Shown piece by piece: positions 44,701 to 64,000 of a stretch of DNA of 64,000 bases. The translations under genes were made by a program, and so were the position numbers. Within the stretch, counting starts at the first letter, position 1; every line of letters begins with the position of its first letter. Origin of the DNA: Priapulus caudatus (lineage: Eukaryota > Priapulida > Priapulimorpha > Priapulimorphida > Priapulidae); NCBI RefSeq assembly GCF_000485595.1, contig NW_014577098.1, positions 449,917 through 513,916 on the forward strand, in the 5' to 3' direction. The notes beneath the pieces are model-generated. The model was not told where the DNA came from. It ran no database searches and worked only from the letters and a program-made list of their open reading frames with translations.

Positions 44701-47104
44701 TCATTTAGGCGTTAGCACCATCTCTTCTCACGATTTCAGACTTTTACAGATCTGTAAACATTGATTTTCCGCCATCAGAACTAACACTTGAAACAAGAAA
44801 CAGTTGAAATTTCTATAGTATAAAAGGTAGGGAGTGAAGACATTTTGATCACATTTCTGCGGTTTCGTCGTAAACGAAACAGCTCTACCAAATTTTAAAT
44901 ACACTCTCCCTCTTCTCAATCACACCCAACTCCGTGCCAGCGTATAGTGTCATCGACACTTCTCATTTGTGTTGATACATATATCGTCGCCGTGTGGCGA
45001 TGTGCGGGTGTTGAGAGGTGGGCTCTGGATGTGACATCAGAGAGTCGGACAGCTGTAACGTTGTTATGTTGTTGGTATCTTAAAGCTACATGGAGCAGCT
45101 ACTGGAGAACGTGGGTGCAGGGCCGCCGGTACCACGACAAGGTGATGGCGGAGAAGATCGACCGCGCTTGTGCGCGTGCACGCCACTGCGACCTGTGCCA
45201 GTAACCGTTGCGACCAAGCGCATGCAAAAACCCACCACCAGTGGCTCGTTCGTATCTCGTGTCCTATCTATGTCTAATTATTTGTTGTGGTTTGTAAGCG
45301 TGGTCTGTTGTTGTATGTCATGAACGCGGGCTGTCTGTTGTTCCTCCGCTCTTGGGGTCTCTCCTACCTGTGTAAGGTTACCTTACCTCCCTTCTGCATT
45401 TCTCACTTGTTCCGTTTACAGTTTGTGTTGCGGTGCTGTCTGTTTGGTTGCGTGATTGCTGTTTGTGTTGCGTGTTGTTGCAGTTTGTGTTCGGCTGTTG
45501 CTGTTTGTGTTGCGCGTGTGCTGTTTGTGTTGCGGCTGTTGCCAGTTTGTGATTGCGCGTGCTTGCAGTTGTTGCGGTGCTGCAGTTTGGTTGCCGTGTT
45601 GCGAGTTTGTTGCGGGCTGCTGTTGTATTCGGTGCCTGCTGTTGCTGTTGCGGTGCTGACCTGTTTGTATCGGTCTGCTGCAGTTTGTGTTGCGGTGTTG
45701 CAGTTTGTGTTGCGGTGCTGCTGTTTGTGTTGCGGTGTTGCAGTTTGTGTTGCGGTGTTGCAGTTTGTGTTGCGGTGTGCTGTTTTTCATTTTTTTTTGT
45801 TGCGCTGCTTTCTTTTGTGCTGTTGCTTGTGCGGTTCTGCCAGTTTGTTGCAGGTGCTTTTGCCGGGCCTCTTTTTGTTTTTGTTTTTTTTTTTCTGTTG
45901 CAGTTGTGTCCGTGCCTTTTCTTCTTTTTTTTTTTTTTTGTTTTCTTTTGTTTTTTTACTTGTTGCAGTTTGCGTGTTGCGGTGTCTCTTTTTGGGTTTT
46001 TTCTATTTTTTGTGTTTTTGTTTCTTTTTTTTTTTTTTTTTGTGTTTGTCCCTGTTCTGTGTGTTCGTCTGTGTTGTGCTTTTTTTGTGTGCTTGGGTCC
46101 GGTGCTGTTGCAGTTTGATGGTTGCAGTGCTGCCTGTTTCCTCGTTCCTCTAGATTGCTCTGAGATAAGAAAGCGTGTTGTGCCGTCTAGAGTTATCGGT
46201 CAGCGCTCTGGTATTCATCGCCCCACCCCTGGCTGTCGGATCGCACCAGTCCCTAGTGTCAGTGTACACACGTAGTGTATGTCTGGCAGACCCGAACCGG
46301 TGCCTGGACACGGCTTCTCCTCTGCTGCCAACGACTGCTACATCGGACCTGCACTTCTATGTCATTGGCCCGGAGCATCGCGGCAACAGGGCCGGCGCCG
46401 AAGAAATCCATGCGGTGCGTAACTACAAGCTGGGCCCGGGGCCCGGGGCGTGGTTGTCAGGAAGTAGCATCCCAACACTGCTGGCCCAGGAAGCTCAGAG
46501 GGGCTGGCGGCGCTTACAGCGTGGTACCGCATGGAGGTGGGTGCTAAGGCGAACGAGGGCTCGGGTGATGGGAGCATACAGGCTATCGCCATGAAGGTGG
46601 GTGCTCGTGGGAACGATGGTGGGGAGTACAGCTACCGTCGAAGGGTGGCTCGTGCTGCGACCGAGGTGTGGGGGAGTACCGCGTACCGTTGAATCGGTGG
46701 TGCTAGGAACGACGGTCGGGGGACAGTCGCAGTCGTACCGTTGTGAAGGTGGGTGTCTTGGGAACGAGGGTGGGAGTACAGCCTATCGCATGAAGTGGTG
46801 ACCCGCGTGCTGCGGAGAACGAGGGTGGGGATTACAAGCTACCCAGTGAGCGCGCGTTGCTGGGACGAGCGGTCGAATCCGGTGGGTGGTATTATCAGCT
46901 GACCGCAGAAGGCTGGCTGTGTGCTCGGTAACGGTACTGGGTGTGTAGTAAGCTACTGCATGACAGTGTGTGCTGGGAACGAGCGGAGTGGGCCGAGCTA
47001 CAGCTACCGATGAAGTGGCTGCGGTGCTACGCGCGGGAGGGACGACCGGTGGTCAGCTCTCGCCTCGGTCCGCTTCTCTCTCGCTCGCTTGCTCTGCTCC
47101 TTCT

Positions 47105-47285: not shown

Positions 47286-50200
47286 AGATTTCATTTACAT
47301 TCGGGTGTCGATGAGCATCTCCTGCCTGGTGCTATATGACATCACATACCCTATGTACCCGCTGTGCCGAATAATTTAACCCTGCAACACGATATCTGAT
47401 CGCCACGCATTAAACTTTTTAGCCTGGCATCGCCCAGTCCGTTACAGCCTGTTGTTGGACTATAGCCTGCCTTCGTTTCACGTCAACGTTACCGTAGTTC
47501 ACGCGTGTTACGTTTGCTATTGTGCGTGCGCGCTTGATTTCGTCCGAGCAGCGCTTGGCTTCAAGACGGCAACACTCTTCGCACGTTTCGGCATAGTCGA
47601 TCGTTGTTGACGTCGGCCTCGGACGAGCCGTGCTGCTGCAGCGGCCTGTGCGTCGACGTACGTACGCCGTAGCTGACATAGAGAAGCTCCAAGCCAAGCA
47701 AGTGAAGGCCCGATACAACACGTACAGCCCAAGGTAAGGTCCGCACAACACTGTACAACCAACGGTAAGGTCCCGTCTACACAACGTAAAGCCAAGGTAA
47801 GGTCCGCTACACGCGATACAACCAAGTAAGGTCCAGATTACACAAATACAGCCAGTAAGGGCCGGATACACACGTACAAGCCAAGTAAGGTGCCGCTACA
47901 GCACTCTACAAGCCAGATAACCTCCGCTACACGCGTATCAATGCCAAGGTTAAGGCCCCATACACAACGCATACAAATGACATCGTAAGGTCTGCTACAG
48001 ATGCTACAAGCACAAGGTAAGGTCCGCTACACATGTACAGCCAATGGTAAGGTCTCGTACTGTCTATCGTACTTAGTCCAGGTAAGGTCTGCTACACGCT
48101 ACAAGCAGTAAGGCGCCGATACACACATACAAGCAACGGTAAGGCCCGCATACACACGTACAAGCCAAACGGTAAGGTGCCGCCTACACACGTACAAGCC
48201 CAAGATTTAAGGTCCGCTACACGTACAAGCCGAATAAGGCCCGATACCACACGTACAAGACAATGTAAGTCCGCTTAGCACAGTACAAGCCAAGGGTAAT
48301 CGTCCGCGACCAGCACTTACAAGCCAAGATAAGACGTCCGGCCTCACGACGTACAAGCCAACGCCGTCTGGTAAGGTCCGCTCCGACACGACGACAAGGC
48401 CAAGATAAGGCGGCCGCCTGACCACACGTACAAGCCAATGGTAATGGCCCGATACACACGTTACAAGCGCAAGGTAAGGTCCGCGCGACAACGCTTACAA
48501 CTCAAGCATAAGGTCGCTGCACACGTACAACCAAGTCAGATGGTCCGCTACCACGTGTACAAAGGCAATAGCACGTTGTCCCGCCTACACTACGTGACAA
48601 CCGCCAATGGTAAGGTCCGTACACTGGGTGTACAAGGCCTAAGGTAAACGGAATAACGATATAATGACTACAATGATAGCCGGATATGTAGCTTATGTAT
48701 GAACACTGTTGTGCCTTGTCAGGAGACCGGCTGTGTGTCCGAGAGCAAGCGGATGGGCGCGAGAGCATACTCTATGACCATTGTCCGCCTACTCGAAGAC
48801 AGTAACGCTGACTGCAGCAGGACCAGGTATTTCTTGTTCCTCTTCTACCCTGCACCACAGGTACGACAGGCTACCATCTCCTCCCCCTCATGACTTATCA
48901 ACATGTGAAATGTTGATCCTGTCATAGTGCACTCTCCTATAAACTGTTATGTTTATGTTTCCGAGCCATCTTTGTTGGTTGTTTTGTTCCTTTCGGCAAC
49001 TTCAATGCCAAGACAATTTGGCATCTTGTATTCTCTTATTGTTGCTGTTGTTGGCTTCCTGCGCCTGCGTCTTCGTGCGGCGGCTCTCCGGTGTCCTGCG
49101 CCGGCCTGGTTTCGTCTTGTTCTATCGTCTCCTGTCTTGGTTGTTTGTCTGTTTGTGTTGTTGTCTCTGTCCACTATGTCTGCGCTGCTGCCGTTGGCCT
49201 CGCCTTGAGCGCCTGTTCCCTCAAGTTTTCGTCGCTCGACCCAGGCCCTAGACTCCTCGTGCGATGTCGTACACGATAGTGGCACGCTGACCAAGAACAA
49301 ACCTTCACCCCTAACCCGGCGATGCCCAGACTGTATTTACATTGAGAGATGGCCCCGTATAGCAGCGATTTGCCAAGTGAGAACGCTAGATATTAGCCCG
49401 TGCCTCACTACAATCTTATCCCGACTTCTCATCGAATGTATGCACAGTTCCTAGACTTGTGGCAAACTCTTACAAAATACCAGTTAGTCGAGTGGCGCTC
49501 CCTAAACAAATGATGGGGGACATCGGATAGAAGCCACAAACTTTTTCCTCAGTACTATCCAGTGCCCTAAGGTTTAAATGTTATGATAGGAGCCACTCAG
49601 CAAAGACTAGAGGAGGCGCATCTTGGATTTCAAGCGTATGGCCGCCATGTAAAACCTCATAATATCAACTATCTGTGTTAAGGTATTTATATGGTCTAGT
49701 GTTATGATTAGTTGTTGTGTGCTGAATGTGTATAATGTACTTAAGCCGGCTCGTCGTGCGAAATTTCTGACCGTCTTACTGATCTCCGCATACGGCCCCC
49801 TCTTGCTGCCTGCCTGTCTTCCGCTGTGTGTGCCCCTACCTACCCGCCATACTATAACCCCTCCCCGCTCTGCTATTCACACGAGGTCCGTGTCTGTTGC
49901 GTGGTGTGCCAGCATGCTCCAGTGTTACAACGTGTCCGACGAAGCTGGCAGACTCATTAACCCGCTACCTGCTACGCATTCGCCGTTCCGTCGACCGGTC
50001 AGCGACGGCGAAGTCACCCGCGCTTAGGCGGGCGTCCAGGTCGGCAGCGCGAGTTGTTATCGCGTCTCCGCGATTGAACGCTCATCTGTGAATTCCGGGA
50101 TGCGGCGGACCACGCCTGTCCGGCCGCGGGCTCCCCGCGGGCCTGCTTCCTATCTGCCTTCCACACCAACACGGTTGAGCCTACCTCTCGCCCGACGGGC

Positions 50201-51051
50201 GGACCGTTCTGGGTGTCGTCGTCTGCGCGCCTCGCCAGGTCCCTCAGGCCCCGACGGGGCAGTGGCGCCAAGACGCCGGGGCTCCGGTCATAACAACTGG
50301 TGAAACGCTCTACTATTCCCAGTGTGTGCGGCCCGAGTCGCTGGTGGGGCCTGTTGGCGGCCGGGTGGTGGGGTGGGGGGATTTTCGCGAGTGTCAGTCG
50401 GCGGAAAGATTAGGGCTCGTTGGCAGGGAACTAACGGTCTGGGGGTCGCGGGAAGGTTTGGGGTGTCCGGCGAGAAGTTTGAGAACTCGGGGGAAGGTTG
50501 GGGTGCCGGGATAAGTGTGGTGCTGGGGACGGTTTCCGGTGAACCCTGGGGGGAAGCGTACAAGCCAAGGTAAGGCCCGATACACACGTACAAGCCAAGG
50601 TAAGGTCCGCTACACGCGTACAAGCCAAGGTAAGGTCCGCTACACGCGTACAAGCCAAGGTAAGGTCCGCTACACGTGTACAAGCCAAGGTAAACGGAAT
50701 AACATATATATGACTACAATGATAGCCGGATATGTAGCTTATGTATGAACACTGTTGTGCGTTTCAGGAGACGGTAGTGTGTGAGAGCAAGCGATGGGAG
50801 AGCAGTACTATGACCATTGTGCCCTACTCGAAGACAGTAACGCTGACTGAGCAGGACCAGGGTATTCTGTCCTTCTACCCTGCACCACAGGTACGACATG
50901 CTTCCATCCTATTACGACATGTGAAATGTTGATCCTGGTATAGTCACTCTCCTATGAACTTTTTGTTTATTTTCGAGGCCATTTTGTTGTTGTTTTTATT
51001 CTTTTCGAATTCAATGCGAACAATTGTTGCATCTTGGTAGTTTTCTTATTC

Positions 51052-51097
<46 letters not shown>

Positions 51098-53063
51098 GTG
51101 TCACATTTTGGTGCTGCTGTTGCTGCAGGCTTCCAAGTTTGTGGTGACACAGTCTGTGATGGAGAAGGCACTGACCAAAAACAACTACACGACACGCATG
51201 CACGACTTATTATACATTGAGGAGATGGCCCAGTATAGCAGCATTGCCAGGTGAGAACGCTAGATATTAGCCATGTTCCTACTACAATTTACCCGACTTC
51301 TCATCGAAAGGTATGCACAGTGTGTGTGGCAAACTCGTTACAAATACCAATAGTCAGGTGGCTAAACAAAATGATGGGGACATTCCGGATAAAAGCACCA
51401 AACTTTTTCCATATACTATCCAGTGCCTAAGGTTTAAATTTTTGATAGGAGCCACTTCAGCAAGATAGAGGGAGGCGGCCATCTTGGATTCCAAGATGGC
51501 CGCCATGTAAAAACCTATAAATGTCAATATCTCGGCTTAAGGTTATTTATATGGTTAGGGTTATGGTTAGTGTTGTGGTGAATGTGTATAATGTACGTAT
51601 GTCGTGGAAATTTGTGTAAGTACTGATCTTCAGTGCGTGCGTGCGTGTGTGTGCGCATGCGCAGGTACAACGTGACGACGAAGCTGCAGATCATTAACCG
51701 CTACCTGCTGATGCCGTCGACCGTATCGACGGCGAAGTACGCGCAGGGAGGCGAGTTGTTCGCTCGCATGAAGCTCATCGCTGAGATCTCGGAGGACACG
51801 GCCGCGGGCCGGCTGCTGCTCAACAACGTGCAGACAGTCGTGCTAGCGCCGCTCAGCCCTGACGGCAAGCCCAAGGATAACAAGGTGAGGCTCTATCCCG
51901 CAGGTGTGGGGAGGCTGGTGGGCTGTTGGGCGGCCGGGGGGGGGATTTTCGGGGGCTCTTTTTGGCATTTCGGGGGCGAAATCGCCCGCCGCCCCCGTGT
52001 ATTTTTTCCCCTGACATGTGTGCGTGCTCATTACTCAAAACAATGACTTGCGACTTAGTCCGTATTATGCTGGAGCGGGTCACAAATGCGATCTTCTAGC
52101 CCTGCGTAAGGGTGTTACTGATCGACATGGACCAATGGTGAAAATCTTTCCGTTTCTGTCACTCGATTACAGGGCGGAAGAGGCACGATTCCTCCAGTCT
52201 GCACTGTGTCTACTGCAAGGTGACGTATAAGAGCAAGGCTGAGCTGGAGACGCATTGCCGCAGCGACAGTCACCAGGCTCTCATCTTGTCAGACGAGGGT
52301 CGTGACTGGAAGCACAGACCTCCACCTCGTGGCCTTTGCAGCACCCAGTTTGTGTTGTGTCAGACGTACGTATAGCATGTTTGTGTTGTGTGAGACGTAC
52401 GTATAATATGTTTGTGTCATGTCAGACATACTCATAGTAGGTTTGTGTTGTTTCAGATAAACCTATAGCATATGTGTGCTCTGTGACTCAGATTTACATA
52501 GGTGACTAAATATATATACCATTTGGAGCAAAAAAAACACATTAATATTCCACATGACATGTCTTAGATGCGCAGAGGTTACTACATGTACTAAGCTATA
52601 TAAGCATTTTGAAGCAAAAAACATGTTCCATGTAATACCTCTAAGATGTGCATACGTTTTAAATCATTTGGAGCAAAAATAATGACAACCATATTCCATT
52701 AAAAAATATACGGAATTTTCCTGCAATGCACAATCGCTGGTGGTGATGGAGGTGACAAACGGGGCATTTTTTTATCAATTGTGACTCATTAGTGATTCTT
52801 GCCTTAACGAGTTTATGAAAGGAGGCACCCGTCAGCTTGCATCGTGTGCCAATCGTTAATGACTGTCGTTAATTACACTCGTCATCAGGTTTATGAGCGG
52901 AGGCAACTGTCGGCTGGGTGAGGCGTGCTGCGATGCCCACAGTGAGGAGGAGCTGGATGAGTGGAAGGAACGCTTCGAGTACAGGACGATGAAGATGCAG
53001 GGAGCGAAGGACCGTCAGCTGCAGGGCAACTGGTGCGTGCGTGTGTGCGTGCGTGTGTAAGTT

Positions 53064-53117
<54 letters not shown>

Positions 53118-56100
53118 TGTGCGCGTGCGTGCATGCGTGCGTGTGTGTGTGAGCGGATGTGCGTATGCGTGCGTGCGTGTGTAGGTGTGTCAATTCACGT
53201 GCATGCATGTATGCAAGTATGCATTTGTGCGTGGCAGCAACGATGTATATTCTGAGAAATTCATCAGTAAATATCATCATTGGTTTCTTACAGTGGACTA
53301 ATTATTGTTATACGCACCGCATCGTGGGATTATTTTTAGCTCACATTGACATCGTCAAGAAGAGCTATTGCCATGGGGTGTCGTCCGTCATACGTCCGTC
53401 CGTCCGTCGTCAACATTTGGCTACGCGTGAGACCGTTTGACCCACATGTTTCAAATTAGCAGTACAGTTGTTACTCCTATGGGAGAGATGGTGAACGTCT
53501 TTTTGGAGCAGCAGTTGACCTACTTTCGAGCCAGCGCCCACTTTTTGGCAAAAATGAAATGCCATTAAGTACAGTCAGGGTCAAGCGGATTTTGCCTCAT
53601 TTTTGGTCTGTGAATGATAAGGACTCGCCCCAAATATCACAGGGTTTTGATATTCTAAAAATTATGCCAAACTTAGGTAAGATATTTGGCAGTTTGCACT
53701 ATGATTTCAGTGTCTGCCTGACCGGTCACCAATACTCAAGACCGTTTTACCACATGTTGTCAATTGCATATAGTATGTTACTCCTATGGGAGGGATTTGA
53801 AGTCTCATTTGGAGCATGCAGTCGACCTACTTTCGAGGCCCGCCACTATTTATGGCGCAAAAATGGGAAAGTGGCATAGTCAGTCAGGTATCAACGGGAT
53901 TTGCTCATTTTGGCTGTGAATGAATAAGGACTGGCCCAAACATATCACAGGGGTTGATTTTCTAAAATCATGCAATTAGGTAGATTTTAGGCAGTATTCA
54001 CTATGCATTCATGTCTAGCCTACGGTCGACTCAAGGTGACGCGCAAGGATCGTTGGAGCCTACCATCGTTTCCGAGATGCAGACAGTTGACTTTGGTTAA
54101 CTCTATAGGAGAGATGTTGATCACGCGCGCTATTTTCGGATGGGGTTCATGCAGTCCGAGCCTACTTTGAGCAGCCACTGTTTGTTGGCAAAAATGAAAT
54201 GAGTCATCTAGCATTCATGTCGTTTTGTTAATTTACCTACTACCTACTTACCTTACCTACTACCTACCTACCTACTACCTACCTACCTACCTACCTACTA
54301 CCTACCCTACTAGCCTACCTACCTACCTACCTACCTACCTAACCTACTATCTGCTAATGCAGGCATACCTACGTCTGTGTTAGATTCTTCGTATACAGTA
54401 ATTTCATGAACTGTTTATTCGCTTTTATTTGCGCGAATGATCGAAACCAAAATGGCGATCATTAGGCGTCCACCACTCCGCCCAGATTTCAGACTTTCAG
54501 ACTGAAATCATTTTATTCGCTCAGAGTAACCCTGAACAGACAGTGAAATTTCTTATTAGTATAAAAGGGCGAGTAAGGACAGTTGATCACATTAGTGGTT
54601 TCGTCCTGTAAAACGAAAACACTTACAATTTTAATATCATCTCCTCTCTTCCACCCAAGGTGAGCTATAGTGTCATTGACACTTTCATTTTTGTTGATAC
54701 ATATATCGTCGCCGTGTGGCGATGTGCGGATAAGATACACCTCGGCACCGAGTTTGTTTTAGTGAGACGTGTTGAGGTGGGCGGGTCAGAGGAGGCGCGA
54801 GCAGCTGTACGTTTGTTTTAGTTGTAGGTTCTTAAGCTACATGGAGCCACTACTGCGAGGAAGTGGTGTGCAGGCGCCGGTGCCGACAAGGTGTGCATGG
54901 CGATAGAGAGCATCGACTCGGTGTGCGCGTGCACGCCAAGCGGCGACCTGGACGTACCGTGGCACGAAGCGATGCACGACCAGTGGCTGTTCACCGTCCA
55001 CGAGCAAGGTACGGAACGTGGCATGATGCGGGCGCGGGTTCTGTGGTTCCCCGCTCTTGTTCGTCTCTCCTTGTGTAAGCGTTACCTTACCTCCCTTCTG
55101 CATTGTCTCACTATTGTGATCGGCGTTACGTTTGATGTTGCGTGCCTGCGTGTTGTGGTTTTGCGGAGATTGTGTTGTGTTTGTTTGCGGTGCTTGCCAG
55201 TTTTGTTGCGCTGGTTGCTGGGTGTGTTGACGGTGTTGCTGTTTGTGCTTGCGGTGTTGCAGCTTTGTGTTGCGGTGGTTGCAGTTGTGTTGCGGTGACC
55301 GGCCAGTTTGTCGTTGCGGTGTTGCGTTTGGTTGCGAGTGCTGAGTTTGTATTGCGGTTTGCTGCTGTGTGTGTTTGCTGTGCTGTTGTTATTGCGGTGG
55401 CTGCAGTTTGTGTTGCGGACTGTTGCAGTTTGATGTTGCCGGTTGCTGCGGTTTGTGTTGCGGTGTTGCTGCTTTGTGTTGCCGGTTCTGCGTTCTGTGT
55501 CTGCGGTGTTGCAGTGTTGCAGTTGTGTTGCGGTGCTGCTGTTGTGTGCGGTGTGCTGTTTGTGTTGCGGTGCTGACGAGTTTGTGTTGCGGCTGTTGCG
55601 GTGTTGCAGTGTGTGTTGCGGTGAACTGGCTGTTCGGTGTGCGGTGTTGCAGTTTGTGTTCGGTGCGGTGTTTGTGTTGCGTGGCAGTTGCGTTGTGTTT
55701 GCTGCTGCTGTTTGTGTTGCGGGGTTGCAGTTGTGTTGCAGTCTGGCTGTTTTTCTCCGTTCCTCTAGATTGTGAAAAAAGCGAAAGCTGGCGTCTAATT
55801 ATCGGTCAGCCCTCTGTATTCATTCGCCCACCCCTGACCTGTCGATGCCAGTCCCCTTATTCTATCACGACGTTGTATGTCTGCAGACGAAGGGTGGGAC
55901 GCTTTGCTCTGTCACGACGTACATCGGAGCAATTCTACATTCCAGCATCAATCAGCGGCCCGAAGAAATCGTGGCCGTAACTACGACTGGAGCCCGTGTG
56001 TCAGGAAGTAACATCAAACACTGCTGGCAGGAACGCGGAAAGGGGTGGGGGAGTTACGCTTACCGCTCGGTGAAAGGTGGTGCTGGAACAGAGGGTGGGA

Positions 56101-56572
56101 GTACGCTATCGCGTGAAGGTGGGTGGCTGAGACGAGGGTGGGGAGTACAGCTTTAGCGTGCACGAAGGTGAGGGGTGCTAGGACGAGGGTGGAGAGTACA
56201 GCTACCGTGTGAGGTGGGTGCAGGGACGAGGGGTGGAGGGAGTGCAGTTACGTGTGAAGGGGGTGCGGAAGAGGCTGAGGCGAGTACAGCATATCGCATG
56301 GAAGGGTGGGTGCTGGGAACGAGGGTGGGGGAGTACAGCTACCGCATGAAGCGTCGAGTGCTATGGGGCGGAGGGTGGAGGAGAGACAGCTACGCAGAAG
56401 GTGGGTGTGCGGAACGAGGTGGGGAGTACAGCTTACTGCACAGGTGAAGCGTGAGGTGCAGGCGGACGGGGTGGGGGAGTACAGCGTCGCATGAAGGAGT
56501 GAGGTGTGTGACGAGGGGGCGCTCTCGCTCTCGCTCTCTCTCTCTCTCTCTCTCTGCTCGCGTCTCTCGTCT

Positions 56573-56619
<47 letters not shown>

Positions 56620-56651
56620 TCCTCTCTCTCTTCTTCTCTCCTCTCTCTCTC

Positions 56652-56718
<67 letters not shown>

Positions 56719-59700
56719 AGATTTCATTTTACTTCGGATGTCGCCCGTGAGCACTCCTGTTGCTAGTGAATCACATTAACCCCTAGTACCCGGCTGTGCG
56801 AAATTGTAACCTGCACACCGATATCTGATCCGCATTAAAATTTTATAGCCTGGCAATGCGCCGTCGGTTACAGCTGTGTTGACATGCCGCCTTCGTGGTC
56901 GAAGATACGTACGTATTCCGGGTGCTTCGTTTTGCGATATTTGCGAGGCGCGTGATTTCGTCGAGCAGGTGGCTCAGAGGACAGTCTTCGGCAACGTTTC
57001 GGCAGTCGATCGTGTTTGACGTCGGCTCGGAGCCCGTGCTGCTGCAGCGGCTGTGCGTCGACGTCGTACCCGTAGCTGACATAGATAAGCTCCAGCAAGC
57101 CAAGGTAAGGCCCGTATGACACACGTCAAGCTAAGTAAGGTCCGTACACATGTACAGCCAGGTAAGGTCGAATAACGATCGGACAGCAAGGGGTAAGGTC
57201 CGCTACACGCGTACAGCCAAGGTACAGGCCGATATCAGCACATACAAGCAAGGTTAAGGCCCGATACACCGTACAAGCCAGTAAGGTCCGCCGACCCGTA
57301 ACAGGCCAAGATAAGGTCCGCTACACGCGCTTACAAGCAAGTACGGCCCGATACACACGTACAGGACAAGGTAGCGTCTGCTACACGATGTACAAGCCAA
57401 GGTAGCGTCCTGTACCATGTACAAGCCAAGGGTAAGGTCCTCTTAACGTACAAGCCAAAGTAGGGTTCTGCTACACGCGTACAAGGCCAGGTAAGGCCGT
57501 ACACAATTACAGCCATGGAAGGCCCGATACACACGTACAGCAGGGGTAGCGTCCGCTACGCCACGTACAAGCCATAGATAAGTCACGCTTGACAACGCCG
57601 TACCAGCCCAAAGGTAAGGCCGCGATACACACGTACAAGAACAGGTAAGCGTCCGCTACACACGTACAAGCCAAGGTAAGGCCGCGACACAGTACAGCCA
57701 AGATAAAGGTTCCGCTGACACGTGACGAGCAAACGGTAGCGTCGCGGCACCACACACTCGTAACAAGCAAAGATAGGTCCGCTACCAGCGACGTACAAGC
57801 CAGTGAGGGGCGCCGATACACACGTACGAAGCCAAGGTAAGGGCGCGAACCCGTACCGCAGATAAAGGTCCGCCTGCACACGTACAAGCCAGTAAGGTCG
57901 CTTACACGTGATGACAGCCAAGGTAAAGGTCGTACACGCGTACAAGCCAAGGTAAGGTCCGCTAAGTGTACAAGCCAAGCGTAACGGCGAATAACATACT
58001 ATATGACTCCAATGATAGCCGGATATGTAGCATTGATGTATGAACACTGTTGCGGTGCGTTGCAGAGAAGACCGGTAGTGCTGTGGAGAGCAAGCGAGTG
58101 AGAGCAGTCTATGGACCATTGTGCCCTCTCGAAGACGAGTAACAGCTGAGCTGAGCAGGACCAGGGTATTCTTGTTCTTCTACCTGCACCACAGGTACGA
58201 ACAGAAATGCTTCCATCCATATTACAACATGTGAAGTGTTGTCCTGTGTATAGTCACTCTCTATGAATTATTGTTTATTATTCGAGCGCATTTTGTTGTA
58301 GTTTTGTTCTTTTCGAGATTCATGCAAGAATTGTGTGGCATGGCTTAGGTGTTTCTTATGTTGTCTTGGTTGTTGTTGTTGGGTGTTGTTGTTGTTGGCG
58401 CTGAGCGATAATGTGTGTGTCGTTCGTTGTTGTTGTGTGTCACGTTTTGGTGCGGTTTCTGTTGGGCTGGCAGGCTTTGCGAGAGTTTGTGGTGCCAGTC
58501 TGTGATGGGAGAACGGCAACTGACTCAATAACAACTTACACGACACGCATGCGACGACTTTTATACATTGAGGGATGGCGCCCAGGGTTATGCAGCTTGC
58601 CAGGTGGAACGCAGATATTAGAACGTTCCTCCTACAATTTACGCCGACTCTGCCGAGATGGGGTATGCACGTGGTGTGTGGAAGCTCGGCGGTTCACAAA
58701 TCAAAATAGTAGGTGGGCTACAACACAAGATGGGGAGCATCCGGATAAAGCCACCACTGTTTCCAATATACTATTCCCGGCCTAAGGTTTAGAACGTGTT
58801 TGAGAGAGGAGTCCACTTCAGAAGATAGGGGAGCGGCCATCTTGGATTGTCAAAGTATGGCCCGCCATGTAACCTTTATAATGTCAGAAGTCTCGGACTT
58901 AAGGTTGTATATGTATAGGTTATGGTTAGTGTTGTGGTGAATGATTGTATAATGTCGGTATTGTCGGGTGGGCGAGAATTTGATGTGGGCTGTACTGATC
59001 TTCAGTGCTGGCAGTGTGAATGGGCATGCATGCGAGGAGCACGTGATCGCGAAGCTGCAGATCAGTTAACGCTACCTGCTGATGCCGATCGACCTTGCGA
59101 CGGCGAAGTACGCGCGAGGGAGAGCGGAGTTGTTCGTCGCAATGAGCTCATCGTGAGATCTCGGAGGAACGGGCGGACCGCGCGCCGCCTGCTTGCTCGA
59201 ACAACCGTGACAGACGGCTCGTGTGCGGCGCCTCCAGCCCGCGGCAGCCCAAGGCATAAACACCAGAGGGTGGACGACGCTCTATCCCGCACGGTGGCTG
59301 CGGCGCGGAGGGCCTGGTGGCGTTTGGGCCGGCCGGACCCGGTCGCGGGGGGGGGGATTTTGGAGAGTACTGCGGGGAAGATTTAGGGTGTAGGGCAGGC
59401 GAAAGGTTTGGGGGCGGTGCGGGGAGAAGGTTTGGTGCCGGGAGAAGGCTTTGGGTCCGGAGAGGGGAAGGTTGGCGGTGCCGGAGGAAGTGTGGGGTGC
59501 TGCGGGAGGGTTGTGGTGCGGGGAACGGTTTGGGCGTGCTGGGGAGCGAGGGTTGGTGTCAGAGAAGTTTGGAGAGCTGGAGGAGGTTGGGGGTGCGGGA
59601 GTTTGGGTGACCGGGGAAGGTTTCGGGGCGGCGGGGAAGGTTTTGTGAGGTCCGGGGAGGGTTGTGGTGCCAGGGGAAGGTTTGGGGCCGGGGGAGGAGT

Positions 59701-62700
59701 CTTGGGGGTGGCTGGGGGGGGGGGAGGGTTGTCGTGCCTGGGGGAAAGGTTGGGGGGCGGCTCGGGGGAGCGTTTGGGGTCCGGGGGGGGGGAGGGTATG
59801 GCTGCTGGCGGAAGGTTTGCGGTTCTGGGGAAGGTTTGGTTCTGGGAGAAGTTTTGGGGTGCGGGGGAGATTATGCCGGATGTTGGCGGGGAGGTTTGGG
59901 GGCTGCTACGGGAAGGTTTGCTGGGTACGGGGGAGGGTTGTGGTGCCGGTGAAGCGTTTGGAGGGCGAGGGCGGGAAGCTTTGGGTCGTCTGGGGCATAG
60001 GGTATGGTGACTGAGGAAGCGGTTTGGATAGTGGTGCGGAGAAGGTGTTGGAGGGGTGCGGGGGGCGGGGGTGGGTGCATGACGGTGCTACCCGTGTATA
60101 TAAGAGCTGGTACTCTGTGTGGTGCTCACATCGCCCCACATCGTTTGTAAACATCCTCCTCACTTCTCTCCTCTGCATGCAGGCTATGAGAGGTGACACT
60201 CGCATTACAACACTAGATATGCTGCTGTACTACACTCTGTCAGTAACCACCTCTCACGCTTCCCTCTCCTCCACCTGGCGTACAGGGTACGAGTTTGACA
60301 CTCTGCATACAACACTGATAATGCTGCTGTAACTACACATCTGTAGTAACCACCTCTCACGCTTCCCTCTCCTCCACACTGCGTACAGGCGTACGAGGTG
60401 ACACTCTGCATACAACACTGATAATGCTGCTGTAACTACACATCTGTAGTAACCACCTCTCACGCTTCCCTCTCCTCCACACTGCGTACAGGCGTACGAG
60501 GTGACACTCTGCATACAACACTGATAATGCTGCTATAACTGCACATCTGTAGTAACCACCTCGCACGCTTCCCTCTCCTCCACACTGCGTACAGGTGTAC
60601 GAGGTGAAGGTCGAAGACAAGGGCAAGAGCTTCATCTTCCTGCGGCAGCCTCCGCACGCCGTCACTGAGCTCGGCTTGCGCGCAGACACGGACCTGCTCG
60701 CGGAGGTGCAGTTTTCGCTCAACCGGCTGCCGCTGTGTGAGATGCACCACGCCGTCGATAAGCTGCCGGACATGAACATGGTGTTCCCTGACCTGCGCAG
60801 CCTGCCGAGCATTCCCTGGACGCCGTCCAAGTAAGTGTGTGGGCTGAGAGGTGGACACCGTCCATGTGCGGCTGCAGCGTATTTATTCGCCGGACGCCGT
60901 CCGTGATTTCCTGGGTACCGTCCAGGTGTATCTATCCTTATTTTCCCCCGAGTGCAATTCGAGTAAGTGTTTGAGGATACATTGTGTTTCCTGGATGCCA
61001 TCACATGTTCTCTCCCATTCACCTACGCACGCGTTGTTCACCTACGCACGCGTTGTTCACCTACGCACGCGTTGACCTACATCCTCCTCTTTGTGACGAT
61101 CTTGTGTCTCGACCCCCCTTTTTTTGTCTGTGGTTCTACGGATCGACTCGTCTCGGTCATGTATGATGACGTGTGCACCTTCCCGTGTCTAGGTACTGTG
61201 AGAAGAAAGCGCGAAGCAGGAGAGGGTCCAAGGTTGCTGTGATCCCCGCAGAGTAAGAGCGTGTTCCTCGCTGTTTCACTCACACCGTTGTTCACACACG
61301 CTCAGTCGCGCGCGCGCTCGCCTCCCCCGCCGCCGCCGCCCGCATGCCCCCGCCCTACTAAACGCATGCCACCCCCGCCCGATCCCGCAGCCTCCCGCCC
61401 CCGGATGGTGTCGGGCACGCGCTCATGCGACCGTGCTGTTTCACGCTGTTCGCGAACATTCCGGTGTGTTCCGGCTAACACTTCGGCATGTTCAGCCATT
61501 CATGAACATTCCGGCGTGTTCCGCTGTTCGCACACGTTCCGATGTTTGCGAACGTTTCGGCACCTTTCGTCGTTTGCGAACATTCCAGCATGTTCCGCTG
61601 TTTGCGAGCGTGTTATAATGTTCCGACTTTCGGCGTGAAACCGGGACACCTCCCCTTCGTGGTTCCGTGTGTGCCGCGCAGCAGCACACGGTCAATGCCT
61701 CGGCGGTAATTGCTTGGATGGTTTTTTTGTCGAGCGCTTTGTAAGCTACGTTAGAAAAATGCTCGCGTTCTCGACGCGTTTGCGTGCGCGGTTATGCGAA
61801 CGCGAGGCGTGTGCTCTAGTTTTGCGTTTTGTGACGATTCGTGCGGAGATTACACGCGATTGTATGTAGTGCAGCTGCCGTCCACACGCGCTGTGCCGCA
61901 ACAGCTGTTCTTGTGTCTCGCATCCCGACATTCGCTCTCGCGTCCCGTGTCGCTACGGTTGCTCTCGTGTTTTCTCGCGTCATAACGGCTGCGCTCATGT
62001 TTTCTCGCGTCGTATCGGCTGCTCTCGTGTTTTCTCGCGTCGTAATCGCTGCTCTCGTGTTTTTCTCGCGTTGTAATCGCTGCTCTCGTGTTTTTTCCGT
62101 CGTCTTCCAGGCAGTGGAGTGATAAACTTGACAGCCGGCTCAACGCGAAGCAGAAGGAGGCGATCGTCGCCATGACGACGGCGATCAACCACAAGCTGCC
62201 GCCGATCCTGCTCGTCGGGCCGTTTGGCACGGGCAAGACGTTCACGCTCGCGCAGGCCATCAAACAGATAGCTCAGCAGGAGGGAACGCGCGTGCTCGTG
62301 TGCACGCACTCCAACAGGTAGGCACCCTCGCACCCAGCCCACTGCTGGTGCAGACACGCTTACTGGTAGGGTAGCCTAACTCTGCCCCTTCCCCTGACCC
62401 TGCCCCTTCCCCTGACCCCATCCCATTGCTGGAGTATGGTTTCCAACAGGTTGGCTGACTCTCCCCCACGCCCACCGCCATTGCAGACGCTGTAACAGAT
62501 ACGTCATTGGGCCGACCTTTCTCCCGCTGGCTAGATGATTCTCTGCCATCGGCATGTCTTGACAAGTGTCATGGGGTTGGAGGGAACGTGCAAGATCCCT
62601 CCGTACGTCAGCTGTCTGTGAGGAACCAGGCAGGTTTCACTCTCATCGTTCGCACGTCGTGCCGTTGCGTCTAGTTTGCGAGCGATCGTGTTTATTGATG

Positions 62701-63545
62701 TGTTGTCGCTTTCGTTGCTGCTACAGCGCTGCCGATCTCTACATCAAGGACTACCTGCATTCATTCGTAGAGCAGGGATTAACCGAAGCGAAGCCACTGC
62801 GAGTCTACTACAGGTATGTATGACTGCGTGACTCGATCTGCAGGTGCTGATTAGCTGTAGGGCTCGCGGAACGCCACTGCAAATTTATCTTAGAGGCTTA
62901 GGGATGTGCTATTGTGCCCATGAGCTAGACTGTGTGCTGTCATGGCATCATGACGCCACAGAGACGAAAGGGGAAATGATATTAAGAATTTAGCTATTAC
63001 CAGATGCGTGAAGGTGGTCTGTGCGATGTGCGATTGCAGGGAATAAAAAATCACGCATATCCCTTATGTCTGCGTGCGTCCGTGCATGTGTGCGTTCATG
63101 TGTGTGTTGGTGCGTGTATAAGCAGACAGCAATGTATGCAGATCCCATACCTTATATTGCACACAATGTTCACGTGTATTGTGTGAGTGTTGTCTCGTCT
63201 GCAGAAATCAATTGACGTATAGACAGCATACCCTTTATTTTGCGGCTTGATGCGGCATGTTTTGCATGCGTGCATCTGTGCGTGCATCTGTGCGTGCGTG
63301 CGCTCGCGTGCGTACTTGTGTGCGTGCGTGTGTGCGTGTGTGCGTCACTGTGTCTGATCTTGTCTCGTGGGTGTGCAGGCAGCGCTGGGTGCAGACAGTG
63401 AACCCGACCGTGCAGCGATACTGCCTCGTTACCGAGAAGGGTGACGGCTTCAACACGCCGACGAAGGAGGACATCCTCAAGCACCGCGTCATCGTCGTCA
63501 CGCTCTCCACGAGCCGATCGCTCACCGACCTCGGCCTAGACACGG
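28195..63545 (+). CDS. HELZ: HELZ-type RNA helicase with zinc fingers, N-terminal to mid-helicase (multi-exon)
   Basis: Gene-level entry; exons follow separately. The product begins with a TPR-like helical region ([13 protein letters not shown]...RYEDVLADC). It continues with a C2H2-like finger and a CCCH finger with the HRPPPRG signature, the conserved middle region ([67 protein letters not shown]), and the Upf1-like SF1 helicase core with Walker A GPFGTGKT, then [20 protein letters not shown] and [16 protein letters not shown]. This order and wording match HELZ, a cytoplasmic helicase linked to mRNA decay and translation. The DEAAQ motif and C-terminus are beyond the window. All intron phases checked agree. 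Sequence from 33,649 to 52,013 is probably misplaced, so the exons at 50,768-51,884 should come after that at 57,104. HELZ2 is the alternative name; the absence of a second helicase cannot be tested here. Confidence 0.93.
28713..30050. mobile_element. hAT-like fragments in HELZ intron 1
   Basis: CAGTGTTTCCCCTGCATTGA at 28,713 and CAGAGTTCGAAATTAGTGCC at 28,849 are hAT-style termini. The stretch 28,855-29,380 plus 29,986-30,050 is paralogous to 24,565-25,080 inside the family D element; about 600 bp more is present here. Boundaries on the right are unclear. Confidence 0.5.
29481..29780. mobile_element. PIF/Harbinger-type MITE, 300 bp, TTA duplication
   Basis: GGGCGCGTTTGTTTG at the left and its inverse CAAACAAACGCGCCC at the right, flanked by TTA (29,478-29,480 and 29,781-29,783). 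TTA targets and G-rich ends fit PIF/Harbinger. CGGATC-type motifs recur inside. Confidence 0.88.
31014..31090. mobile_element. Family C hAT-type fragment
   Basis: CAGTGGAAAAAATACACGGG followed by GCTC and, inverted, GAAATGCCAAAAAGAGCCCC. It is the same terminal text as the element ending at 21,448. The other end is not identified. Confidence 0.6.
31153..31189 (+). CDS. HELZ: HELZ exon 2 (37 nt)
   Basis: [12 protein letters not shown] between ttgttgcag and G|gtaagt, entering phase 0 and leaving phase 1. It continues the TPR-like pattern of exon 1. Confidence 0.88.
31360..31484 (+). CDS. HELZ: HELZ exon 3
   Basis: [20 protein letters not shown] then [20 protein letters not shown], between atattgcag and gtaagt. 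Helical, TPR-like; leaves in phase 0. Confidence 0.9.
31873..32083 (+). CDS. HELZ: HELZ exon 4 (acidic linker)
   Basis: [20 protein letters not shown] then a Glu/Pro/Ala-rich linker, ending GHAK. Acceptor cctccag. The donor AAAG|gtcggt is weak but leaves phase 1, exactly what the zinc-finger exon at 52,173 needs. Confidence 0.82.
32424..32811. mobile_element. Family G hAT-type MITE, uninterrupted copy
   Basis: TAGTGATGTCATGATCATCG...TTGACAACACTA between CCTTCTCG (32,416-32,423) and CCTTCTTG (32,812-32,819), 7 of 8 matching. It is the inverse-orientation relative of 17,584-18,513 and gives the empty site for the nested MITE there. Confidence 0.88.
33029..33381. repeat. Accurate copy of a segment repeated with errors at 33,649-34,003
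   Basis: Both contain GAATAGATCATTTAA, CTTTAAAATGATATATAAT, AAAGCGTTCTGG and GTCAGGGGCCCTTGAAAAAT. The second copy has frequent one-base differences. This is the point where sequence quality changes. Confidence 0.85.
33382..33540. mobile_element. Left end of a family C hAT-type element (right end at 51,930-52,013)
   Basis: CAGTGAAAAAATTAATTTTT directly follows ACATGTGT (33,374-33,381). The interior GGGGCTCTTTTTGC and GGGGCTACTTTTTC text is the family C signature. No right end follows locally; a matching right end with the same ACATGTGT flank is at 52,013. Confidence 0.82.
33541..33648. repeat. (CA)n/(CACG)n microsatellite
   Basis: CACACA and CACGCACG units; the last accurate sequence before the noisy block. 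Confidence 0.9.
35420..36790 (-). mobile_element. Family F element in HELZ intron (noisy copy 1)
   Basis: From TTTTTAGCTCACACTGACATC to CTATAGTGTCATTGGACATC on the + strand, with a (CCTA)n tract at about 36,320-36,420. The same intron insertion recurs at 43,505 and 53,335. Confidence 0.7.
36884..37047 (+). pseudogene. HELZ: HELZ exon 7, least damaged of three copies
   Basis: Reads [20 protein letters not shown] then [17 protein letters not shown] before gtacgg, matching the HELZ segment KVEHNPDLSVTVSTKK..TWTF. The first third (YMEQLLEKW in the consensus of the copies) is shifted here. Acceptor atcttacag. Confidence 0.75.
37165..37740. repeat. 20-bp minisatellite GTTGCGGTGTTGCAGTTTGT (copy 1)
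   Basis: Runs of the unit with TGCTG/TTGCAG variants. Each full unit carries a TTGCAG acceptor-like motif. The same array lies at 45,415-45,790 (degrading to T-rich sequence until 46,130) and 55,130-55,750, always between exons 7 and 8. Confidence 0.9.
38056..38580. repeat. ~45-bp minisatellite containing the exon 8 donor (copy 1)
   Basis: Units near GTGGGTGCTGGAACGAGGGT + GGGGAGTACAGCTACCGCAT + GAAG repeat about 11-12 times. The exon's last codons and its GTGGGT donor are the junction of every unit. Counterparts lie at 46,537-47,040 and 56,077-56,515. Length per unit varies 42-47 because of base errors. Confidence 0.85.
38590..38761. repeat. (CT)n tract before HELZ exon 9 (copy 1)
   Basis: Long CT run followed by TTTGAGATTTCATTTACATT. 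It is repeated at 47,050-47,283 and 56,520-56,715. Confidence 0.9.
39148..40327. repeat. 30-bp donor minisatellite (copy 1, truncated by gap)
   Basis: About 39 noisy units of GTACAAGCCAAGGTAAGGTC + CGCTACACGC, starting at the exon 9 donor and running into the n-gap. Confidence 0.9.
40328..40352. other. Assembly gap (25 n)
   Basis: Exactly 25 n, inside the noisy region. Confidence 0.98.
40353..41980. other. Unrecognised GC-rich segment
   Basis: Begins with a (CA)n run (to 40,432), then about 1.5 kb with no counterpart elsewhere in the window and no recognisable protein in any frame. It differs in composition from its neighbours and may be a read tail or foreign join. Confidence 0.35.
43505..44972 (-). 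mobile_element. Family F element in HELZ intron (noisy copy 2)
   Basis: Same insertion as at 35,420, with a (CCTA)n tract at about 44,425-44,575. Confidence 0.65.
47702..48650. repeat. 30-bp donor minisatellite (copy 2)
   Basis: About 31 noisy units following the exon 9 copy. Confidence 0.9.
50558..50695. repeat. 30-bp donor minisatellite, accurate fragment (4.6 units)
   Basis: Four consecutive exact 30-bp units (50,558, 50,588, 50,618, 50,648) and a partial fifth. Unit: GTACAAGCCAAGGTAAGGTC followed by CGCTACACGC, first unit variant CCGATACACAC. Each contains CAAG|GTAAGG. The last donor, AAG|GTAAAC at 50,690, precedes the next exon by only 78 bp. Confidence 0.95.
50768..50890 (+). CDS. HELZ: HELZ exon 10 (accurate copy, probably misplaced)
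   Basis: [20 protein letters not shown] then [20 protein letters not shown], 41 codons, phase 0 both sides, between gtttcag and gtacga. Corresponds to the HELZ AKRWDSSSKTI segment. Noisy versions at 48,723-48,860 and 58,066-58,194. Confidence 0.9.
51055..51098. repeat. (TTG)n microsatellite
   Basis: About 14 TTG units in HELZ intron 10. Confidence 0.9.
51129..51250 (+). CDS. HELZ: HELZ exon 11 (accurate copy, probably misplaced)
   Basis: [20 protein letters not shown] then [20 protein letters not shown], highly characteristic of HELZ ([26 protein letters not shown] in vertebrates). Acceptor gctgcag, donor AG|gtgaga, phase 2. Confidence 0.95.
51665..51884 (+). CDS. HELZ: HELZ exon 12 (accurate copy, probably misplaced)
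   Basis: [20 protein letters not shown], then [20 protein letters not shown] and [20 protein letters not shown], ending PKDNK before gtgagg. Matches the HELZ region leading into the helicase core; phase 0 at its end fits exon 13 at 60,595. Confidence 0.95.
51930..52013. mobile_element. Right end of a family C hAT-type element
   Basis: GGGGGCTCTTTTTGGCATTT...CCCCCGTGTATTTTTTCCCC then TG, followed by ACATGTGT (52,014-52,021). The partner left end is at 33,382. The sequence just upstream (to about 51,930) belongs to intron 12. Confidence 0.85.
52173..52365 (+). CDS. HELZ: HELZ exon 5 (C2H2-like finger and HRPPPRG signature)
   Basis: [20 protein letters not shown], then [20 protein letters not shown] and [24 protein letters not shown]. 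The finger is C-x2-C-x12-H-x5-H. HRPPPRG precedes the CCCH finger in HELZ proteins. Acceptor gattacag takes phase 1 from exon 4; the donor AC|gtacgt leaves phase 2 and the first CCCH cysteine. Confidence 0.93.
52889..53032 (+). CDS. HELZ: HELZ exon 6 (CCCH finger)
   Basis: [20 protein letters not shown] then [27 protein letters not shown]. With the Cys in exon 5 it makes C-x8-C-x5-C-x3-H, the canonical CCCH spacing. Acceptor catcag, donor TG|gtgcgt, phase 2. Confidence 0.94.
53068..53160. repeat. (GT)n/(GCGT)n microsatellite
   Basis: A pure GT run with flanking TGCGTGCG units just after exon 6. Confidence 0.92.
53335..54698 (-). mobile_element. Family F element in HELZ intron 6
   Basis: From TTTTTAGCTCACATTGACATC to AGCTATAGTGTCATTGACACT on the + strand, with CATAGGAGTAAC-type modules on the opposite strand and a (CCTA)n tract at about 54,236-54,345. 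Base-level noise starts near its beginning. Confidence 0.75.
54837..55008 (+). CDS. HELZ: HELZ exon 7 (noisy)
   Basis: Consensus of the three copies reads CYMEQLLEKW... then [32 protein letters not shown]. This copy has indels that shift frame, for example in the CAGGCGCCGG area. Donor AAG|gtacgg. Confidence 0.7.
55130..55750. repeat. 20-bp minisatellite GTTGCGGTGTTGCAGTTTGT (copy 3)
   Basis: Noisy array in HELZ intron 7 with TTGCAG in most units. Confidence 0.88.
55887..56076 (+). CDS. HELZ: HELZ exon 8 (noisy)
   Basis: Frames vary between copies; across copies I read fragments [17 protein letters not shown] and, near the end, EYSYRMK or AYRIK before gtgggt, aligning with the HELZ stretch DAHRPHFSIIAIS and HYVYK. 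Acceptor tctgcag. Confidence 0.65.
56077..56515. repeat. ~45-bp donor minisatellite (copy 3)
   Basis: About 9-10 units of the exon 8 end plus GTGGGT donor. A 45-bp unit reads [15 protein letters not shown] with no stop. Confidence 0.85.
56520..56715. repeat. (CT)n tract, HELZ intron 8
   Basis: Almost pure CT, nearly 200 bp, between the minisatellite and exon 9. Confidence 0.92.
56905..57104 (+). CDS. HELZ: HELZ exon 9
   Basis: Its 3' part is clean: [20 protein letters not shown] then [20 protein letters not shown], matching HELZ [20 protein letters not shown]. It ends CAAGCCAAG|gtaagg in phase 0, and that junction is the unit of the following minisatellite. The 5' boundary is uncertain because the copies differ there (copy 1 has tttcag at 38,940). 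Confidence 0.85.
57105..57985. repeat. 30-bp donor minisatellite (copy 3)
   Basis: About 29 noisy units of GTAAGGTCCGCTACACGCGT + ACAAGCCAAG directly continuing the exon 9 donor, ending in GTAAACGG-like sequence before exon 10. Confidence 0.92.
58066..59267 (+). pseudogene. Noisy copies of HELZ exons 10-12 (copy 3)
   Basis: Degraded versions at about 58,066-58,194, 58,474-58,603 and 59,036-59,267 of the accurate exons at 50,768, 51,129 and 51,665, with the same flanking intron text. Frames are broken many times. This is their expected genomic place. Confidence 0.8.
59340..60080. repeat. G-rich ~20-bp minisatellite, HELZ intron 12
   Basis: Units near GGGGAAGGTTTGGGGTGCCG repeat for about 0.7 kb. 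A truncated version is at 50,345-50,555. The G-runs could form G-quadruplex structures. Confidence 0.88.
60183..60594. repeat. 103-bp tandem repeat containing the exon 13 acceptor
   Basis: Exon-like starts at 60,183, 60,286, 60,389, 60,492 and the real one at 60,595 are spaced exactly 103 bp. Each later unit has CCCTCTCCTCCAC..GCGTACAG followed by (G)CGTACGAGGTGA, copying the acceptor and first codons of exon 13, then ACACTCTGCATACAACACTG. Confidence 0.95.
60595..60830 (+). CDS. HELZ: HELZ exon 13 (pre-helicase)
   Basis: [20 protein letters not shown], then [20 protein letters not shown] and [29 protein letters not shown] and IPWSP are HELZ signatures. Phase 0 in, phase 2 out (AA|gtaagt). 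Confidence 0.95.
60831..62110. repeat. HELZ intron 13 with several short tandem repeats
   Basis: 18-bp CACCTACGCACGCGTTGTT repeats at about 61,020-61,075, ~30-bp GTTTGCGAACATTCCGG-type repeats at 61,440-61,620, and ~31-bp CTCGCGTCGTAATCGCTGCT repeats at 61,970-62,100 ending in the exon 14 acceptor. Confidence 0.8.
62111..62317 (+). CDS. HELZ: HELZ exon 14 (helicase core, Walker A)
   Basis: [20 protein letters not shown], then [20 protein letters not shown] and [19 protein letters not shown] is motif I; LNAKQKEA is the Q-type motif. Phase 2 in and out. SF1 Upf1-like. Confidence 0.97.
62727..62813 (+). CDS. HELZ: HELZ exon 15
   Basis: [20 protein letters not shown] then [10 protein letters not shown], the motif Ia continuation ([17 protein letters not shown].. 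in vertebrate HELZ). Acceptor gctacag, donor AG|gtatgt. Confidence 0.97.
63379..63545 (+). CDS. HELZ: HELZ exon 16 (last seen)
   Basis: [20 protein letters not shown], then [20 protein letters not shown] and TDLGLDTG. Corresponds to [21 protein letters not shown] just before the DEAAQ motif. Donor ACGG|gtacgc, phase 1; the next exon is outside the window. Confidence 0.96.
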
Positions 63546-63769
63546 GTACGCACGTCACTCGCGCGCACTCACTCACTTCACCATCGAGACAAATTATTTG
63601 TACCCACGCAATGTAATCTATTATAACAAACAGTGCTGTGCCTTATATCTACACAGTCTTGTCTTGTACCTAAACAAAGTCACATGTCTTAGCCGTGTAC
63701 AAAGTCGTATCTCTTAACTGCACGCAGTCATCTCATGGTGGATGGCTTTACTGCTTGCGCTGGCACATC

Positions 63770-63995
63770 ATCCTCCCTCTCTCTTCTCTCTCTCTCTCTC
63801 TCGTCAATCTCGTCTCTCTCTCTCTCCTCTTTCCTCTCTCTTCCCATCTCATCGTCTTTCTCTCTCTTTCTTCCTTCCCCTCTCTCTCTCTCTCTCTCCC
63901 ACCTCTCCCATCTCGCCGCCGCTCTCTCTCTCTCTCCTCTCTAACCGCACATCCCTCTCTCCTCTCTTTTCCCTCTCTCTCTTCCATCTCCCTCT
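63770..63995. repeat. (CT)n-rich tract
   Basis: Imperfect CT/TCC microsatellite in HELZ intron 16 to near the window edge. Confidence 0.9.
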
Positions 63996-64000
63996 CTTCT

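Follow-up and report, generated by a model that had tools for sequence, protein, structure and literature searches.

A minisatellite across the exon 9 splice donor of a HELZ-like gene in Priapulus caudatus

Which donor defines an exon when the donor itself has been multiplied thirty to forty times? The question arises at exon 9 of a HELZ-like gene of the priapulid Priapulus caudatus, whose end, CAGCAAGCCAAG/GTAAGG (a slash marks the splice boundary), was located at 57,104/57,105, where a first-pass annotation of this DNA had placed it, and runs into a tandem array of 30-bp units. We analysed a window of 64,000 nucleotides (449917-513916 of contig C38, in an assembly of 385 Mb and 2952 contigs), which the gene occupies from ~34 kb onward. 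Judged by its predicted domains the gene is HELZ-like, combining a CCCH finger with a UPF1-like SF1 helicase: an upstream exon pair scored 23.0 bits for zf-CCCH (cut-off 20.5), while a helicase composite scored 50.8 bits for AAA_11 and 93.6 bits for AAA_12 (cut-off 27) and had UPF1 chains as its best PDB matches. Exon by exon, the gene was matched by tblastn to human HELZ. An Rfam search of the window returned no matches at gathering scores.

Anatomy of the 30-bp array

Self-comparison revealed one segment of the HELZ-like gene present three times in the window, at ~34.0-40.3 kb (copy A), 42.1-50.0 kb (copy B) and 52.0-59.3 kb (copy C). The copies share ~71-87% identity in long alignments, with gap columns at least as numerous as mismatches, and are probably uncorrected raw long reads that were used for gap filling. 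Between 34000 and 60000, a gene prediction would get both the number of exons and the number of gene copies wrong. The interval 57,105-57,985 lies within noisy copy C, where the lengths of single units are untrustworthy; accurate sequence of the array is confined to 50,557-50,695. The features on which the analysis rests are as follows, all on the + strand.

56969..57104, +, exon 9 of the HELZ-like gene in noisy copy C (tblastn and boundary comparison; acceptor set by eye)
57096..57985, +, 30-bp minisatellite in noisy copy C, ~30 units, starting within the final 9 bases of that exon (Tandem Repeats Finder and alignment)
50557..50695, +, 3′ end of the array in accurate sequence, where four units of exactly 30 bp are followed by a partial last one whose donor, GTAAAC, is weaker
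50690..50767, +, 78-nt intron left past the last donor
50768..50890, +, exon 10 in the accurate copy, 41 residues
39141..40327, +, 30-bp array of at least 39 units in noisy copy A, truncated by a run of N
47694..48645, +, 30-bp array in noisy copy B, ~30 units, with a unit order like that of copy C

Tandem Repeats Finder detected the 30-bp array in each copy, and wrap-around alignment counted ~30 units in copy C, ~30 in copy B and at least 39 in copy A, where the run of N cuts the array short; the earlier estimate had been about 29 units, and about 39 in the first copy. Much of what had been described from the letters alone was borne out by the accurate fragment. All four full clean units (starts 50,557, 50,587, 50,617 and 50,647) are exactly 30 bp long and, read in the phase of exon 9, each is an open stretch of 10 residues. 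From the last donor at 50,690 to the exon 10 acceptor we measured the 78 nt that had been claimed, and past this donor, where a stop had been predicted within eight codons, the frame stays open through VNGITYI before meeting TGA as the eighth codon.

The claim that every unit holds the same donor did not survive. GT is kept at the donor position in 31/39 units of copy A, 23/30 of copy B, 24/30 of copy C and 5/5 clean units (the terminal partial unit included). It is replaced by AT in 6/39, 4/30 and 5/30 units, respectively (13-17% in each noisy copy), and in 0/5 clean ones, with other dinucleotides in two (A), three (B), one (C) and no clean units. Because AT recurs at the same column in all three noisy copies, these units are taken to be genuine, whereas the scattered remaining dinucleotides look like read error. 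Five columns of the unit vary recurrently (C/T, donor +1 G/A, T/C, C/A and G/A), of which four alter an amino acid in the codon phase of exon 9, by a manual count over few columns; this is as expected without protein constraint.

The units can also be ordered by type, and on a coarse classification of noisy sequence the orders in copies B and C agree better than in any of 2000 shuffles, whereas that of the longer copy A, classified in the same coarse way, matches neither B (p 0.62) nor C (p 0.10). The pattern suggests two length alleles of the array, one represented by B and C and the other by A, and it is from this that we infer an allele-length polymorphism.

An assembly in this state raises the possibility that the length of the array, along with the threefold gene segment, was created by raw-read gap filling. 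Three indel-rich copies of one segment, the run of N and the genome matches listed, at least 24 and all on contig C38, are what such an origin would leave behind. However, the exact 30-bp units of the accurate fragment, and a like array in apparently accurate sequence elsewhere (L023, on contig C13), speak against it, and we give it next to no probability for the array. The threefold segment is probably an artefact; the 30-bp array itself is not.

Boundary arrays in the rest of the gene and genome

The exon 9 donor is not the only boundary of this gene that lies in or near an array.

52348..52478, +, 31-bp array across the zinc-finger exon donor CAGAC/GTACGT, whose third and fourth units no longer have GT (read by eye; 24-mer comparison)
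56077..56500, +, ~45-bp array across the exon 8 donor, ..EYSYRMK/GTGGGT, in noisy copy C (also at 38056-38598 and 46537-47010)
60190..60607, +, 103-bp array of about four copies across the exon 13 acceptor, TGCGTACAG/GTGTACGAG
61960..62103, +, 30-bp pyrimidine-rich intronic array that ends 7 bases upstream of the exon 15 acceptor without crossing it

To compare boundaries with arrays, 24-mers from 22 boundaries and from exon 8 were matched to 10 array units, some boundaries having been entered 1-2 bases off. For shuffled sequences the 99% level lay at 15 matches and the highest count was 18. The zinc-finger donor matched its adjacent 31-bp unit, and the exon 13 acceptor its 103-bp unit, at 23/24 positions each, and the exon 9 boundary in copy C matched the 30-bp unit at 18/24, which, with the detection by Tandem Repeats Finder in each copy, we take to exceed chance. 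Exon 8 reached 15/24 in copy C and 22/24 in copy A, a stretch that overlaps the arrays behind the consensus. All other boundaries compared stayed at or below 15/24. Joining the zinc-finger exon at CAGAC/GTACGT to CAG/GTTTATGAGC yields 17 residues that align without a gap to human HELZ. For the exon 8 array the best period was 45 (score 1541), against 43 (1436) and 44 (1419). The array upstream of exon 15 may multiply branch or pyrimidine tracts. Separately, a 20-bp intronic array, TTTGTGTTGCGGTGCTGCAG, with acceptor-like units ending in CAG, was seen at 37163-37732, 45419-45785 and 55179-55739.

Window positions 52,012-63,999 form a minisatellite hot spot. Arrays with a period of at least 12 cover 26% of this interval, and 18% of the 10 kb that follow it downstream; they cover 3.1% of window positions 1-34,000 and a mean of 3.1% of 23 sampled stretches of 10 kb, taken at a fixed offset of 300,001 in contigs C1-C23. 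We considered whether arrays are targeted to splice sites and rejected the idea: with a tolerance of 5 bases, 4/19 boundaries fell in arrays, against a mean of 5.2 under circular shifts (P(≥4) 0.82), and 3/19 did so without tolerance when periods of at least 4 were counted. The lack of any excess over array coverage argues against splice sites attracting arrays.

A donor-motif screen over the arrays of 25 stretches, two of them the HELZ flank, gave five rows at four arrays and may have missed other cases; among the screened arrays, the one examined for homology, and backed by it, lies in L023, one of the 23 sampled stretches. Here an exon with a HOOK domain (Pfam E 3.2e-12; Hook homolog 1 chain E 1.2e-9) ends in IQQ/GTGAGG, and this end is repeated at L023 9258-9651 as six donors, GTGAGGCG or GTTAGGCG, spaced 65, 65, 64, 65 and 64 bp. 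The spacing is not a multiple of three, and read-through is open over the 60 codons read. The searches support a HOOK domain for this gene, not the narrower label CCDC88-like. With this second case, boundary arrays are seen to extend beyond a single noisy locus.

Donor choice and reading frame

The 30-bp array belongs to the splice-boundary minisatellites: what has been expanded in tandem is exon 9's end together with the start of the intron. A 13-mer, CAAGCCAAGGTAA, is common to its exon side and intron side, so the array probably arose within an ancestral boundary of the sequence CAAGCCAAG/GTAAACGG, followed by an intron of 78 nt. The 78 nt that remain as an intron past the last donor are the probable pre-expansion intron.

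Alignment to human HELZ bears on donor choice. In human numbering the tblastn match of exon 9 runs to residue 396, and exon 10, whose first residue is E, takes up at 397; a protein spliced from the first donor would thus have no gap. Scored with a weight matrix, the first donor (AAG/GTAAGG) reaches 11.2, the same as the consensus inner donors, and the last (AAG/GTAAAC) 7.4. The most plausible reading, and in our judgement the probable one, is that the first donor is used and that splicing passes over a mostly harmless array. Exon 9 would be defined by the first donor and the whole array spliced out to exon 10, while the remaining GT units would be near-identical competing donors, seldom used if ever; an inner donor, when used, would add 10, 20, 30 or more in-frame residues. 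Anatomy, unit variation, donor loss and the gapless junction are what was observed, and it is beside these that we infer first-donor use and neutrality. The in-frame gain of n × 10 residues put forward by the first-pass annotation stands as geometry, in that each live donor would add a multiple of 10 if it were used.

The same annotation had gone further in suggesting a length-variable protein segment. In this account the inner donors are regularly used and the array encodes n × 10 residues of HELZ that differ between alleles; it draws on the clean unit, which is 30 bp long, in phase 0 and stop-free, and on the exon 8 array, whose best-fitting period, 45, likewise keeps the frame. Of the four donor arrays, those of 30 and ~45 bp keep the frame and are stop-free by consensus; this counts against splicing that passes over the array, for a length-variable segment would look alike. 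Yet beyond the open frame the suggestion found no backing. The exon 9/10 junction is gapless against human HELZ, unit-to-unit variation is mostly non-synonymous, and the frame would be lost with the periods of two other arrays, 31 and 64/65 bp. Those two donor arrays, in the HELZ-like gene and the Hook gene, also argue against selection for frame, and two in-frame periods out of four (30 and ~45 versus 31 and 64/65) are too few to tell from chance. We regard a protein segment of this kind as highly improbable.

Relatives in other animals and the mitochondrial genome

Arrays of this type have precedents. The mirages of amphioxus, in Adh3, the globins BflGb6 and BflGb9, and PGBD5, are alike in being minisatellite-like tandem duplications of exon-intron boundaries on the donor or acceptor side, with AG/GT signals in many but not all units, and they vary in length, as the HELZ array may do (PMC3087553, PMC3902484, in their available text). 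The term is defined in the first of these papers, whose available text suggests that regular splicing is undisturbed, notes splice signals in many, not all, repeats and reports different repeat numbers in two haplotypes (PMC3087553); the available text of the second adds the PGBD5 mirage and cites Adh and troponin C (PMC3902484). Units there measure 10-72 bp in Adh3, 150-160 bp in the globins and 60 and 108 bp in PGBD5 (available text of PMC3087553 and PMC3902484). The HELZ arrays share two structural marks of mirages: a unit spans the boundary, on the donor side by taking in the end of the exon with the first bases of the intron, or else on the acceptor side; and in the 30-bp array splice signals stand in many but not all units (GT in 31/39, 23/30 and 24/30). 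They differ in their host, mirages having been described in cephalochordates, a mark that is historical rather than structural, whereas here the host is a priapulid, and the arrays reach four boundaries within one gene. A paper on huntingtin also describes tandem repeats for an amphioxus gene, though its available text does not mention splice sites within them (PMC2206037).

Human genes supply examples in which splicing does respond. Tandem repeats at human exon-intron boundaries can alter splicing, according to the available text of PMC2812944. The VNTR in intron 18 of human ABCA7 is alike in that the exon 18 donor stands at the start of its unit, the first GT being that of the exon; units of 25 bp number from 12 to ~427, the donor of a second unit is used, a single unit can be retained, and splicing depends on length (PMC5954066, available text). 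It differs in that 25 bp makes one-unit retention a frameshift, and in that an effect on splicing was measured in ABCA7 (available text of PMC5954066). The IFI6 minisatellite, too, supplies several splice donors, but there the alternative ones are reported as used, two downstream repeat units serving as donors to give three mRNA species (available text of PMC4526556).

Set against first-donor splicing past a mostly harmless HELZ array, the second-unit donor and length-dependent splicing of ABCA7 and the two downstream donors of IFI6 count as evidence to the contrary; the undisturbed splicing reported for amphioxus mirages counts in its favour. The same precedents bear on the decoy bank of the first-pass annotation, in which the array would titrate U1 and slow or misdirect exon 9 splicing, its length tuning HELZ level or isoforms. 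Retention of GT in 77-80% of units in the noisy copies, two apparent length alleles and the human ABCA7 case (PMC5954066, as far as its available text goes) are consistent with such a role, but donor-dead units are tolerated and amphioxus mirages are reported, in the available text of PMC3087553 and PMC3902484, to leave regular splicing undisturbed. On balance we consider a decoy function unlikely.

Study of the IFI6 (6-16) minisatellite, which has a unit of 12 bp, reportedly goes back to Turri et al. in 1995. The kind of array seems already known, from amphioxus and human, and the lineage new. If the lineage holds, boundary minisatellites, several to a gene, also occur in an animal distant from both. 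A broader proposal, that the priapulid genome recurrently carries donor- and acceptor-side boundary minisatellites independent of those of amphioxus and that HELZ length alleles shift donor choice and isoforms, strikes us as distinctly improbable. Boundary arrays would offer natural material for studying how one donor is picked by the spliceosome out of dozens that are nearly identical, and bear on new introns that may be seeded by tandem duplication of AG/GT sites. They also call for caution, as gene predictors may extend exons into them.

The assembly also yielded the mitochondrial DNA (contig C2952, 14,919 bases, three pieces joined), in the order 12S V 16S L1 L2 ND1 -S2 -CYTB -ND6 P -T ND4L ND4 H ND5 F -E -S1 I -Q M ND2 W -C -Y COX1 COX2 K D ATP8 ATP6 COX3 G ND3 A R N. 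Protein genes were named from translations and rRNAs from position; 23 tRNAs were called, and a weak extra Ala in ND3 was dropped. COX1 directly precedes COX2, with no tRNA called between them, and the block from the rRNAs to S1 is inverted. Apart from one large inversion this is the ground pattern of arthropods, and it agrees with the arrangement known for Priapulus caudatus; in amphioxus mitochondrial DNA, tRNAs lie between COX1 and COX2, and amphioxus was rejected as the host on this ground. An arthropod is likewise less likely, a search for the PF00379 cuticle family having given 0 matches, as did one for RAG1, but both searches are weak because the control genomes gave no signal either. 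At C1568:75493-76781 we observed a COX1-like sequence with internal TAG and TAA stops, possibly a nuclear mitochondrial copy. Among the ecdysozoans compared in PMC5068742, the priapulid mitochondrial order is described, in the available text, as specific and as the most deuterostome-like.
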